From Symbiodinium natans (taxonomy: Eukaryota > Sar > Dinophyceae > Suessiales > Symbiodiniaceae): a stretch of DNA of 64,000 bases. Shown one piece after another: positions 12,972-30,529 of this stretch (position 1 is its first letter; every line of letters starts with the position of its first letter). The stretch spans positions 521,501-585,500 of the forward strand of contig CAJNDS010002118.1 in the NCBI GenBank assembly GCA_905221605.1. Reading direction: 5' to 3'. Under the pieces are notes generated by a model. The model had not been told where the DNA came from. It saw only the letters and a list, made by a program, of their open reading frames with translations, and did no database searches. A program made the translations under genes and the position numbers.

Positions 12972-13011
12972 TCATCCAGGCCACTGGTGTTCCCACAGGT
13001 CGAGTCCGATC
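12972..13011 (-). CDS. AMT exon 21 (C-terminus, stop)
   Basis: Acceptor GCTGAG, then one base and IGLDLWEHQWPG followed by TGA at 12972-12974. GLD..EH is the conserved motif of the cytoplasmic tail in eukaryotic AMTs. The tail is short if this stop is used; a later exon (for example an island at about 12080-12140) cannot be excluded. Confidence 0.6.
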
Positions 13012-13106
13012 CTCAGCAGTTGCGGCGGCTTGTCAGGGCTATTTTTGGGTTTAGGGTTTAAATTTAGGGCTTAGGGTTAAGGGTTTTGGGTTTAGGGTTT
13101 AGGGTG

Positions 13107-13200
13107 GTTTCCGAAATTAGGGTACCTTATTGGGGTCCTTATTATAAGTGAACCCACTATTTGGCGGTCTATTTTAGGGGTCCCACCTTTCGTAAACCCC
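13107..13200. mobile_element. Dispersed repeat family B, copy 1
   Basis: Shares TTTCCGAAATTAGGG, GGTCTATT, GGGGTCCC and CTTTCG in the same order with the stretch at 40047-40205. It lies in an AMT intron. The two copies differ by an inserted telomere-like tract in the second. Confidence 0.45.
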
Positions 13201-13498
13201 CATTTGGGGTTTAAGGCTTAGAACTTAGGGTTTAGGGTTTGGGGCTTAGAGCTCAGGACTTATGGGGGTTTGAATATTAGGGTTGCGGATTCTCGGGCCA
13301 CAAGTGCGAAACCCCAAACACCCAATTCAAAACCCGAAACCCATAACCAGGTATGCCTTTCAACCATCCCAAAGAAGTCCTTCGAATTCAGCAACGTGGG
13401 GGGGGGGGGGGAAAGCATCGTTCAAACCCTCAACCCGAAACCATAAACCCTAAACCCGAAACCCTAAACCCTAAACCCTAAAAACGCGCCAAGGGCTC

Positions 13499-13546
13499 AG
13501 TTCGCATGCGCGAGTGCACCGGAAGCCGGCCACGATCTCGATGAGC
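13499..13546 (-). CDS. AMT exon 20 (after last membrane helix)
   Basis: Acceptor CCTACAG; encodes LIEIVAGFRCTRACE, matching the segment that links the last helix to the tail (usually LRV...E.E). To keep frame with exon 21 the donor must be GA (CT|GAGCCC), a donor class described in dinoflagellates. Confidence 0.55.
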
Positions 13547-14106
13547 CTGTAGGGTTTAGGTTTAGTGTCTAAGATTTAGGGTTTAGGGCTTAGGGTTTAG
13601 GGTTTAGGGTTTCGGGTCTAGGGTTTAGGGTTTAGGGCTACTAGGGCTTCGGGATTCGGAGCCTCTAAGATCCAGGGGGGCTAAGGGTTGGCGGTTCAAA
13701 GACGCACATGTCTTCTAAGATTCTGGACAAGACCTGCCAGTTCACGCCTCTTGTCGCCGTGCCGCCCCTTCCCCTCCACTCGGATCTAAGCACAACATCG
13801 GCCAAAAGACTCAGGGGGAATGCCTGTTTAGGGTTCGGGGGTTGGTGTTGAGGCTTCAGAGTTCAGGAGCCTAGTAAAGCAAGGGGGCTGTTCAACCTCA
13901 ACAGCTACAGCGACGCAGGCGCCATATGGGTGCCCAAGAAGTTCCGAAGGTCTCCGAAAGTGAGGGTGTTATGGGGACCCTAAACCTTGAGCATTTTGGG
14001 GGGCTGACAGTGTTGGCGTTGAATTCTCAAGGGGCTCAGGGTTTAGGGTTTAGGGTTTAGGGTTGAGGGTTTCGGGTTTCGGGTTTCGGGTTTACGGGGA
14101 AGCAGC

Positions 14107-14175
14107 AGCATGGTTGTGTCGAGGCACAGCACGGAGATGTAGGTGATTCCTATGGAGATCCCCGAGAGAAGAAAC
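14107..14175 (-). CDS. AMT exon 19 (last transmembrane helix)
   Basis: Acceptor CAGCTCAG; encodes a hydrophobic stretch (FLLSGISIGITYISVLCLD) that fits the final helix. The donor lies in a GCTGCTGCT run, so three GC donors three bases apart give the same phase and the exact end is uncertain. Confidence 0.6.
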
Positions 14176-14215
14176 CTGAGCTGGCGGGAGGGGAGGGGGT
14201 TCGAGTAGGGTCTGG

Positions 14216-14310
14216 GGTTTAGGGTTTAGGGTTTAGGGTTTAGGGTTTAGGGTTTAGGGTTTAGGGTTTAGGGTTTAGGGTTTAGGGTTTAGGGTTTAGG
14301 GTTTAGGGGT
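14216..14310 (+). repeat. Telomere-like TTTAGGG array in AMT intron
   Basis: About 13 near-perfect units inside the intron between exons 18 and 19. A CCCTAAA tract of opposite orientation (14551-14622) lies in the same intron. Confidence 0.9.
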
Positions 14311-14860
14311 TAGGGTCTAGCGTGGGTTCTCCCAATGACCTAGGCAGGAGTTAGCCAGTGATCACCTTTTCGTTCAAGCTCCCTCAGGCTTAGTCAGGCA
14401 AACATCCTGCGCCACACAAATCCCGGTGAAGACCCCTGACCCCACACGCCGTGAATCTCCTACCTAGAACATCCCCCAAGCCTCAAACCCCAGAACCCTA
14501 AACCCACATGAAAACCCCTGAGACCCGAAAGAAACTCCCAACCCTAGATCCTGAAACCCTAAACCCTAAACCCTAAACCCTAAACCCTAAACCCTAAACC
14601 CTAAACCCTAAACCCTAAACACATTCTAGAGGGGGGAAAAAGCCCCCTGGAAAGGGTCAGCCCTGTCCCGACGCCGGGAGCTGAGGGCTGAGGGAAGAAA
14701 GAAAGGGCTTGGGGGCTTCCTGCTATGGTTCAGGCTTCAGACTTCTGAGGGCTTTAGGGGTCTAGGGTTGAGGAGTTCAGGGTTTAAGAGTTTAGGGTTT
14801 AGGGTTTAGGGTGTAGGGGTTTGGGTTTAGGCCCAAGGCCCAAAGCATCTGCCCAGTGGC

Positions 14861-14909
14861 AAGCCGATGAGTTGATTTCCCAACAACGTCCACCCGGCAT
14901 CTCCGCCGC
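14861..14909 (-). CDS. AMT exon 18 (GGG..LLG.Q motif)
   Basis: Acceptor CCCTGAG; encodes GGDAGWTLLGNQLIG, the second half of the strongly conserved GGG...LLG.QL.G motif. Donor GC (CTT|GCCACT). Phase fits exons 17 and 19. Confidence 0.75.
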
Positions 14910-28399: not shown

Positions 28400-28877
28400 C
28401 TAAGAACCCTAAACAACCCTACACCCCAACCCTAAACCCGAAAACCCTCAACTTGAACCCTAAACCTCCATGAGCCCCCTATAAACGCCAAAGATCCCAG
28501 ATACCCAGCACCAAAAGCCGCGGCTGTCAGCTCGGGCAGCTCATTGGTTTGGGGTTTCATTGGGGGGCGGTGTACTTTTGAGGTCGATAGGGTTGAGGGT
28601 GCTAAGCTACACCTGCAAGGTCACCGCTTTCATCTTTCAAAGCCCTAAAACAAGGCCAAACCCTGAGAGGGGAGATTCGCGCGACCCCCAAGCCCGCGAA
28701 CGCTGACAGGCCTAAGAATCTTCTTCGACAAGGAGGAACTCTTGCTTTGGGGTTTAGGGCTCGAGAATTTAAGGTTTTGGTTTTCCGGTTGGGGGGGGGG
28801 GGCGGTGGTTCTGCTTCCTCGTTGGGGCTATATTTGAATGGATCATTGTATTCCTTATTGAGAACTTAATTTGACAC

Positions 28878-28952
28878 AAATGCAAAATTATAACCTGCGG
28901 CCGCGCCGCGTGCAAAAAAAGTGCGCCAGGTCGGTACCCGCATCGCCCAGGC
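28878..28952 (-). CDS. AMT exon 4
   Basis: Pyrimidine-rich acceptor (CTTCCTTCTTTGGTGAG), donor GT (TTT|GTGTCA). Encodes AWAMRVPTWRTFFARGAAAG then YNFAF, leading into exon 5 at the position of W.FF..AFA in the family. Confidence 0.65.
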
Positions 28953-29041
28953 CTCACCAAAGAAGGAAGCAGATTCGAATTGAGGTAGGGTTTAGGGTTT
29001 TGGGTTTTGGGTTTTTAGTTCAGGGTTTAGGGTTTAGGGTT

Positions 29042-29166
29042 TACTTGGAGGTTCAGGGGTACTTTGTAAGTAGGGTTGAAAGCATCTGTGTCCTAATTTA
29101 TTGGGGTTGCAACCATAGTTGCCCTACTTCTAGCCCGACTTGCAAGTACACATGAACCTCCAAGTA
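29042..29166. mobile_element. Family A element, copy 7 (AMT intron), best preserved
   Basis: TACTTGGAGGTTCAGGGGTA on the left and TACACATGAACCTCCAAGTA on the right form termini of about 20 bp. Inner AAGTAGGGTTG faces TTGCCCTACTTC. Total 125 bp, in the intron between AMT exons 3 and 4. Confidence 0.68.
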
Positions 29167-29639
29167 GGACCTGGAAGCTGGGGGGGAGACAATTGACACG
29201 TAACAGAAACTTCACCCTGTGTTGGGGAGTCGTGCACTGGAGCTGTCTGCAGAGAGAGTTTAGGGTTTAGGGTTTAGGGTTTGGGGTTTAGGGTTTAGGG
29301 TTTAGGGTTCAGGGTTCAGGGGGGTGTGGGTGCCTAGAAGCAAGTACCCTCAACCCCCGAGACCCCGAACCCCAAACCATCAACCAGGGCCGCAAAAGTA
29401 GGTGCTTGGGTCCCACGGCTACCCGGCTACCCGAAAGCGTGAACCACAACTGAAGGGTTCAATCCTCATGGTTCGGGGTTGATTGGATTGTTGAGGCTTG
29501 AGGGGTTTAAACCCTAAACCCTAAACCCTAAACCCTAAACCCTAGACCCTAAACCCTAAACCCTAAACCCTAAACCCTAAACCCTAAACCGGTCTTGGGC
29601 TTGGAGGTTGAGGTTTGGGGCATGCCCTGGGGGCTTCAC

Positions 29640-29725
29640 GGCACCCAGGCGAGCCGGGCCGCCCGTCAAGGTATGCGTGTCGTGGTAAGCGATGTAGTAT
29701 CCGAATAGGAAGAAGGCCAGCACGC
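29640..29725 (-). CDS. AMT exon 3
   Basis: Acceptor ATCCTGAG, donor GT (GCC|GTGAAG). Encodes VLAFFLFGYYIAYHDTHTLT and GGPARLGA, matching the WWLFGYAFAFG helix. Joined to exon 2 it reads LDLCIGVLAFFLFGY. Confidence 0.78.
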
Positions 29726-29945
29726 CTCAGGATTCCCAAACTCTGAGATGATGTTTAGGGTTTTTTAGGGCTTTTTGGGGTTGAGGGTTTAGGGGTTTAG
29801 GGGTTTTGGGGGTTTTGGGGTTTTGGGGTTTAGGGGTTTGCAGCTGCAGGGGCTTCACAGCTTCACAGCTTCAGGGCTTCAACTCTTTCCCAGGGTCTGG
29901 GGCTTACGGGGGAGCCCGGTCACTGGGTTCAAGCGGCCGAGCCAC

Positions 29946-30013
29946 CGATGCACAGATCGAGCATGTTCTTCATCATGATGTTCGCAGCATTGTTTGGCTG
30001 CTGATATGCTGAC
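29946..30013 (-). CDS. AMT exon 2 (KN..D.C motif)
   Basis: Acceptor AACGCAAG, donor GT (ATCG|GTGGCT). Encodes SAYQQPNNAANIMMKNMLDL then CI, matching RxKNAANIMLKNMLDLC. The first five codons would be missing if the later acceptor at 29998 is used. Confidence 0.75.
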
Positions 30014-30426
30014 CTTGCGTTTGCACTGGTTGAACATGCGGCGCCTCTTGAGAACTGATTCCGCACTAACTAACTAAGCATCCGATGTGGGTTCAGGGGT
30101 GTGTCGGACGTTCCGGAGTTTGGTTCATCAGATCCCGAACCCTGATTCCTGAACCAACCCAATACCCGAAGCGTGTGCGACATCACGAGGTAACTTGCAA
30201 GATTGCGTAAAGCCCTAGGTTACAGCAACCTCCACAAGGCCACATGGGGGGGGGGGTTTGGGGCCTCGGTCCTGGGGCTCGAAAAAGAAGATGCGGAATA
30301 AGCCTTCATTTAAAACCAAAAAAGCCTCATTAAGGTGTAAAGCACATTGCCCAAGTACAGGGTGTGTTTGTAGGGCGTTGGGTCTTGGGCGTTTTTGAGG
30401 GGGGTGAAAGCATCAGGAGGCCGCGC

Positions 30427-30529
30427 GGCTCGAGCATTGCGAAGCCGCTTTGCATCTGCACGATGCGCGCGGCGCACGTCAGCACGAAACTGCCAAGCAA
30501 GGAGGCGTGTAGGGTCTTGGAGGTATCGG
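30427..30529 (-). CDS. AMT exon 1 as found (GFAMLE helix)
   Basis: Acceptor TACCCACAG, donor GC (GAGCC|GCGCGG). Contains LLGSFVLTCAARIVQMQSG then FAMLE, the first helix with the FFMQ.GFAMLE motif of eukaryotic AMTs. It starts with two bases of a split codon, so at least one upstream exon with the start codon exists and is not identified. Confidence 0.75.

Follow-up and report, generated by a model that had tools for sequence, protein, structure and literature searches.

Introduction

The described intron systems that come nearest to the arrangement reported here are the introns of Amoebophrya, the introners of Symbiodinium microadriaticum and the nonconventional introns of euglenids (PMC7789003, PMC9860276, PMC4770533). 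Many Amoebophrya introns are bounded by inverted repeats of 8-20 nt, with direct repeats of 3-5 nt over the exon/intron borders, and their complementary ends are predicted to join those borders (PMC7789003). The introners of S. microadriaticum have terminal inverted repeats and 4-bp target duplications (PMC9860276), and the euglenid introns are characterized by variable non-canonical borders and a stem that joins the intron ends (PMC4770533). Beside these systems we set a 64,000-nt stretch of contig CAJNDS010002118.1 of the dinoflagellate Symbiodinium natans (the window). To judge from its sequence, it contains a nuclear AMT-type ammonium transporter gene that is very probably intact and working as such, and the introns of this gene carry arrays of the telomere-type repeat TTTAGGG/CCCTAAA that are enriched near the splice sites and mostly polarised relative to them.

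The coding span of the gene runs on the minus strand from the ATG at 32616 to the stop codon at 3391 and comprises 35 exons and 34 introns, 29,226 bases in all for 1,770 coding bases (589 codons, 6.06% coding). The joined exons equal the deposited S. natans protein P0121 in 589 of 589 residues, which is the basis of every exon coordinate given below. Intron-rich Symbiodinium genes likewise use GC, GT and GA donors; their published averages (those of S. microadriaticum by the paper's column order) are about 22 exons per gene, 109.5 bp per exon and 504.7 bp per intron (PMC5177918), whereas the exons of the AMT gene average 51 bp and its introns 808 bp. The mean in one Symbiodinium genome is 21.8 exons per gene (PMC5177918), so that 35 exons are many but not out of kind. 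The 34 donors divide into 19 GC, 8 GA and 7 GT (the aligner gave these three equal weight and permitted others at a 4-bit penalty), all 34 acceptors are AG, as the aligner required, and in 32 of 34 cases the next exon begins with G, for which the aligner gave a 1-bit bonus. These G(C/A/T)...AG borders fit the donor pattern published for dinoflagellates (PMC11453091; PMC5177918) and, being all of this form, differ from those of the euglenid introns. As in Amoebophrya, the intron ends are complementary and predicted to bring the exon borders together; unlike in Amoebophrya, the complementary segments are long telomere-type arrays set back from the splice sites by 3 to about 70 nt, and border repeats are marginal.

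In Fugacium kawagutii and other dinoflagellates, the repeat unit of the telomeres is TTTAGGG (PMC11453091). Interstitial telomeric sequences are tandem telomere-type repeats as well, but the arrays in the window are denser and polarised relative to exons. In open-access papers (supplements excluded) we found no description of an arrangement of such arrays relative to splice sites, which suggests that this arrangement, and not the gene, is the new part of the finding.

Array Position and Polarity at the Splice Sites

In the window, 98 perfect arrays reach a length of 21 bp or more and together make up 4,865 bp, compared with none in each of 20 shuffles; they occur in both orientations and are spread throughout. 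Within the AMT gene lie 62 of the 98, none of which overlaps an exon, and 25 of the 34 introns hold at least one, as an earlier reading made from the letters of the window alone (the sequence-only reading) had noticed in outline. Arrays make up 10.96% of the AMT introns and 5.34% of the window outside the gene, an approximately twofold difference. Being intronic, they would be removed by splicing.

In this gene, the arrays are over-represented close to the splice sites and for the most part polarised: read in the sense direction, TTTAGGG prevails behind donors and CCCTAAA ahead of acceptors. Where the arrays sit and which way they point is the most unusual feature of the locus and was absent from the sequence-only reading. 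For the tests, arrays were called at 18 of 21 matches, the zone 10-120 nt from the splice sites was scored, and introns were circularly shifted as controls. Array coverage in this zone is 2,789 bp against 1,553 +/- 208 bp in shifted introns (p=0.0002, the floor of the test). Behind donors, the sense strand has 1,068 bp of TTTAGGG and 397 bp of CCCTAAA; before acceptors, where the asymmetry is strongest, the figures are 164 bp and 1,160 bp. The resulting polarity statistic is 1,667, compared with -5 +/- 282 under circular shifts (p=0.0002, again the floor), and by intron the sign is positive in 25, negative in five and zero in four (sign-flip p=0.0002). The polarity is much stronger towards the 3' end of the gene, where introns 18-34 are polarised 16:1 (p=0.0003), than among introns 1-17. 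Across 16 settings combining array definition and distance, polarity reached the floor of p=0.001 in all 16, with Fisher values of 0.00017-0.025, and end enrichment was significant in 12.

Individual introns illustrate the arrangement (all features on the minus strand, with repeat units named in the sense direction). TTTAGGG arrays begin 11 nt after the donor of intron 9 (26488-26548) and 30 nt after that of intron 16 (20483-20542), and a CCCTAAA array ends 47 nt before the acceptor of intron 11 (23959-24102). Both ends are occupied in intron 27, by TTTAGGG 13 nt after the donor (12051-12077) and CCCTAAA 38 nt before the acceptor (11552-11661), and in intron 33, by two TTTAGGG arrays near the donor (6429-6454 and 6462-6487, within 6429-6487) and CCCTAAA 15 nt before the acceptor (5956-5979). 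Upstream of exon 1, a CCCTAAA-like array occupies 32722-32909 (plus-strand unit GGGTTTA), and the 500 nt upstream of the ATG hold 174 bp of CCCTAAA and 0 bp of TTTAGGG. Once arrays are masked, little G/C skew remains in the introns, the exception being the stretch 6-30 nt ahead of acceptors, where C is in excess (skew of -0.25 or -0.19, by masking level); the arrays therefore carry most of the effect.

Two further repeats were observed in the introns. A perfect 93-bp tandem duplication with CCCTAAA units lies at 8251-8436 inside intron 31, and an inverted-repeat element of about 100 nt, similar to miniature inverted-repeat transposable elements, occurs in both orientations in introns 5, 17, 19, 21 and 32 (for example at about 15020-15115), with arms that by eye resemble CTACTTGGAGGTTCATGGGTAC.

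Possible Origins of the Polarity

The account that we put forward, tentatively and in the knowledge that it may well be wrong, is that telomere repeats were seeded throughout the non-coding DNA and then sorted by splicing. Selection against TTTAGGG before acceptors is the simplest account of the asymmetry found there. With AG|G found at 32 of 34 acceptors, a (TTTAGGG)n array in the sense strand amounts to a row of acceptor look-alikes, which would be purged upstream of true acceptors, and the G-free (CCCTAAA)n may be tolerated or even useful in that position. The excess of TTTAGGG behind donors has two candidate explanations: the array may fold onto the complementary acceptor-side array and so draw the ends of a long intron together, or its G runs may act as splicing enhancers. 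G-run splicing enhancers occur in animals.

Predicted folds bear on the pairing candidate. In minimum-energy folds of 33 of the 34 introns (intron 34, at 2483 nt, was left out for its length), 1,001 end-to-end pairs are predicted, compared with 429 +/- 84 in rotated introns, and ten or more such pairs occur in 22 of 33 introns, compared with a mean of 15.4 after rotation (p=0.011). The folds join intron ends more than the rotated controls do because of the array polarity, and an excess of this kind can follow from polarity alone. We therefore do not take pairing as an established cause, the less so because the orientation at one end of an intron does not predict that at the other: among introns with an array at both ends, conditional Fisher tests gave 0.25, 0.30 and 0.61. 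A wider proposal, in which S. natans would use its telomere repeats as a genome-wide intron-definition signal, strikes us as doubtful. The repeats would then act as a uniform clamp on long, weakly marked introns, with TTTAGGG behind the donor and CCCTAAA before the acceptor folding the ends together and strings of AG|G being kept from true acceptors.

Several results, besides this lack of association between the two ends, count against sorting by splicing. The pattern was noticed and tested in the same 34 introns of one gene, and is to that extent post hoc. At a distance of 60 nt, all four array definitions leave end enrichment short of significance (p 0.064-0.153); polarity in introns 1-17 is 9:4 with four zero (p=0.27, not significant); and when arrays are called more loosely, at 12 of 14 matches, the p value for first and last arrays is 0.061 (Fisher test). 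Introns 2, 8 and 30 show the opposite array order, with a CCCTAAA array (sense) 12 nt after the donor of intron 2 (32187-32279, minus strand) and a TTTAGGG array (sense) 20 nt before the acceptor of intron 8 (26665-26685, minus strand), and introns 10, 22, 23 and 31 have CCCTAAA at both ends. Arrays near the ICMT methyltransferase frame elsewhere in the window likewise stand in the opposite order. A role of the arrays as branch sites finds no backing in motif counts: CTRAY occurs before 2 of 34 acceptors, against 2 of 34 and 3 of 34 in controls, and CTAAH before 13 of 34, little above the 10 of 34 in mid-intron.

Chance or post hoc pattern-finding, in a genome where telomere repeats abound, is an explanation of the polarity to which we give appreciable weight, unlikely as it seems to us. 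It draws on the use of one gene for both discovery and test, on the non-significant first half of the introns and on the loose-calling result; against it stand the intron-level sign-flip test and z values of 3.8 to 6.1 in the 16 settings.

The main rival to the splicing view is DNA breakage, which we judge to be a distinctly unlikely but serious explanation. Here the arrays would be scars of breaks whose ends were capped by telomerase and rejoined head to head, leaving TTTAGGG...CCCTAAA inside introns, and such capping gives the same polarity as the one observed. Each exon would then resemble a fragment with correctly polarised telomeres at both of its ends; 14 of the 35 exons lie in CCCTAAA-to-TTTAGGG gaps compared with 4.8 expected by length, and the iron permease frame upstream of the gene, FTR1, is flanked by arrays in the same sense as the exons. 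Interstitial telomere repeats that stem from break repair are, moreover, reported for primates and rodents (PMC7215372). Rejoined ends would nonetheless be hard to reconcile with the two arrays of an intron usually lying hundreds of bases apart, with the three introns in opposite order and the four with CCCTAAA at both ends, with the ICMT frame being flanked the opposite way, or with the 500 nt after the stop codon, which hold an array in neither orientation.

Considerably weaker is the idea that the introns are copies of an introner transposon with telomere-like terminal inverted repeats. The precedents in S. microadriaticum and Amoebophrya described above speak for it, as do direct repeats at the borders, which with a mean length of 2.68 against 2.42 in shuffled pairings are only marginally longer (p=0.048). 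An all-against-all comparison of the 34 introns with arrays masked found only the element of about 100 nt in introns 5, 17, 19, 21 and 32 and two pairs of short matches, between introns 1 and 31 and between introns 25 and 29. Instead of reaching the exact ends, the outermost arrays of the introns are set back from the splice sites by 3 to about 70 nt, their lengths vary, and the association of orientations within introns is not significant. Because the masked introns of this gene share little beyond the one element in five of them, we rejected an introner family as the origin of the arrays and regard it as very unlikely.

The Ammonium Transporter Gene

When the three minus frames were read, AMT-like pieces appeared in family order. 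A crude join of these pieces matches Pfam PF00909 (E=2.3e-25), and in a protein search they returned the gene model P0001 at rank 1, a Skav gene model (the prefix presumably denoting Fugacium kawagutii) at rank 3 and a Togula protein at rank 17, the remaining named matches listed being mostly bacterial. We then ran a custom spliced-profile aligner with two profiles, a mixed one and one built exclusively from seven bacterial AMTs. With the mixed profile, 24 exons on the minus strand of 12001-33000 aligned at 707.2 bits, compared with 24.1 to 68.4 bits in 11 controls (the plus strand, the reversed and the complemented sequence, four other stretches or strands of the window and four 30-mer block shuffles); with the bacterial profile, the score was 204.5 bits, compared with at most 43.0 in controls. 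Chance is excluded for the AMT match because the target scores so far above the controls, and the claim of the sequence-only reading that AMT motifs run in family order on one strand is thus borne out.

The first joined model, 479 residues in 26 exons, was made before any S. natans sequence was known to us. A search with it retrieved P0121 (589 residues) at 98% identity over 100% of the query, the sole difference in the shared part being eight extra model residues at the end of exon 23. Mapping P0121 back onto the window gave 34 exons, and the last 24 bases including the stop codon were placed separately at 3414-3391, the one place on the window's minus strand that fully matches the degenerate codons for the seven final residues and the stop. 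The C-terminal exons after exon 26 were placed only by means of P0121; the C-terminal tail of P0001 alone found no significant placement. At the first of two intron costs it reached 27.4 bits and its seven controls up to 26.7; at the second it reached 23.7 bits and the controls up to 24.7, a control here exceeding the target. Three sets of candidates were discarded: small extra exons at both gene ends, which the aligner proposed at low intron cost and which were spurious; an exon at 14435-14411 proposed at one aligner setting; and an end of exon 23 at 14104, since P0121 and its relatives put that end at 14128.

All exons lie on the minus strand. Exon 1, with the start ATG, occupies 32564-32616 and exon 2 occupies 32292-32366, both outside the interval 12972-30529 to which the sequence-only reading had confined the gene. 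Within the interval follow exons 3 (30430-30489), 4 (29946-30013), 5 (29663-29725), 6 (28910-28952), 7 (28307-28382) and 8 (27471-27505); exon 9 (26560-26644), which encodes DFAGSVVVH with the first pore histidine; exons 10 (26063-26093), 11 (24793-24854), 12 (23864-23911), 13 (22727-22793), 14 (21873-21939), 15 (21183-21250), 16 (20573-20616), 17 (19626-19656), 18 (18721-18780) and 19 (17766-17800); exon 20 (16332-16397), which encodes IDDAVGAVAAHG with the second pore histidine; and exons 21 (15872-15947), 22 (14861-14909), 23 (14128-14175), 24 (13499-13546) and 25 (12985-13011), the last inside the interval. Beyond it lie exons 26 (12315-12351), 27 (12091-12142), 28 (11492-11513), 29 (10411-10458), 30 (9636-9690), 31 (9034-9068), 32 (7653-7689), 33 (6525-6556) and 34 (5898-5940), and exon 35 with the stop codon (3391-3414), directly preceded by AG.

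The interval that had been credited with 21 exons and 466 codons thus holds exons 3-25, which are 23 exons and 419 codons, and as an outline of the gene it is 12 exons too short (two 5' and ten 3'). That more than 90 percent of it is intron proved correct, at 92.8%, and the statement that no frame in it exceeds about 150 codons comes close: the longest stop-to-stop frame overlapping the interval has 160. The exons do join in phase, and both pore histidines are kept as H185 and H375 of P0121.

The 479-residue model matches PF00909 with 252 bits (cut-off 23.2; E=1.1e-74) in two stretches, and in a PDB search it returned 28 distinct sequences up to E=0.001, the best being 6eu6 (E=4.1e-39). Thirty-six aligned AMTs show no variation at D177 (of DFAG), H185, H375, W165 and W169, among other columns, and the first three we take to be pore residues. 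From family membership, these conserved residues and full-length relatives, the product is most likely an ammonium/ammonia transporter of the AMT class.

In local alignments that cover 90-99% of the query, the dinoflagellate relatives are 51-87% identical to it. They include P0122 (an MMETSP transcript), P0124 of Effrenium voratum, P0128 of Durusdinium trenchii, P0131 (a symbB gene model, presumably of Breviolum minutum) and P0163 of Prorocentrum cordatum, homologues whose C-terminal tails vary. The exon joins are supported by these full-length sequences, one of them from a transcriptome: P0122 aligns without gaps around 32 of the 34 junctions, and eight other proteins do so around 31, 30, 29, 28, 30, 28, 28 and 28. 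P0001 (eukprot g14820.t1), a defective gene model of a relative without the middle of the transporter, is gapless around 16 of 34; by eye it is close to P0127 of D. trenchii. No confirmed relative of P0121 was found on viral contigs. Past the AMT core, exons 26-35 (12351-3391, minus strand) encode a C-terminal tail some 125 residues long that varies among relatives, and within it an RRASL motif, which to us resembles a protein kinase A site, is kept in P0121, P0122 and P0123.

A pseudogene, untranscribed or in decay, or a set of separate fragments is an extremely improbable account of the locus given 589 codons without a stop or frame break across 35 exons with dinoflagellate-type borders, identity with the deposited protein, pore residues that are kept, and full-length products in relatives, including the transcriptome-derived P0122.

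The gene and its protein were already known. P0121 is recorded as 'unnamed protein product [Symbiodinium natans]' with PF00909, and in UniRef as 'Ammonium transporter AmtB-like domain-cont...'. The sequence-only reading had described the gene as hidden, which it is not, because the exact protein is deposited in GenBank and UniRef as an S. natans product. The genome paper for S. natans drew on RNA-seq, on full-length cDNA from Iso-Seq and on gene predictors adapted to alternative splice donors (PMC8045281). The worry that gene finders would miss the gene is reasonable for less adapted pipelines because P0001, a relative's model, lacks the middle of the transporter. Perfect arrays as near as 11 nt to splice sites likewise justify caution over masking telomere repeats before gene finding. 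Taken by itself, the gene is ordinary, in view of the known dinoflagellate donor pattern, the AMT family match and the full-length relatives that support its joins.

Neighbouring Features of the Window

Upstream of the AMT gene and on the same strand, a 484-codon frame at 34828-36282 (minus strand) encodes a putative iron permease, FTR1 (PF03239, E=1.4e-31); its nearest arrays on the plus strand are CCCTAAA to the left and TTTAGGG to the right, as around many AMT exons. At higher coordinates, also on the minus strand, lie a 238-codon frame at 57533-58249 with a match to ICMT methyltransferases (PF04140, E=1.5e-9), a 375-codon frame at 55252-56379 with a repeated cysteine-rich unit, Ser/Thr-rich linkers and a sub-threshold Pfam match only, and a 357-codon frame at 59437-60510 in which several stretches look hydrophobic by eye and for which Pfam, searched to E=1, gave no match. 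At 60975-63737 (minus strand), putative reverse transcriptase and RNase H pieces of a decayed retroelement were recognized by eye. A second many-exon gene was sought at 36-54 kb by codon-score scans, and the 492 concatenated candidate residues gave no match at E up to 10. Neither Rfam, searched at gathering thresholds, nor a tRNA scan returned anything in the window.

Implications

The AMT gene itself adds little, as its protein is deposited and the expansion of the family in Symbiodinium is published, with PF00909 enriched at 42-68 domains in each of three genomes (PMC5177918). The polarity of the arrays, if it holds genome-wide, would give telomere repeats a new role or reveal a new footprint of them, either as a splicing signal made of telomere DNA or as the trace of breaks within genes that telomerase had capped. 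In either case the polarity bears on how dinoflagellates recognize long introns with non-canonical borders.

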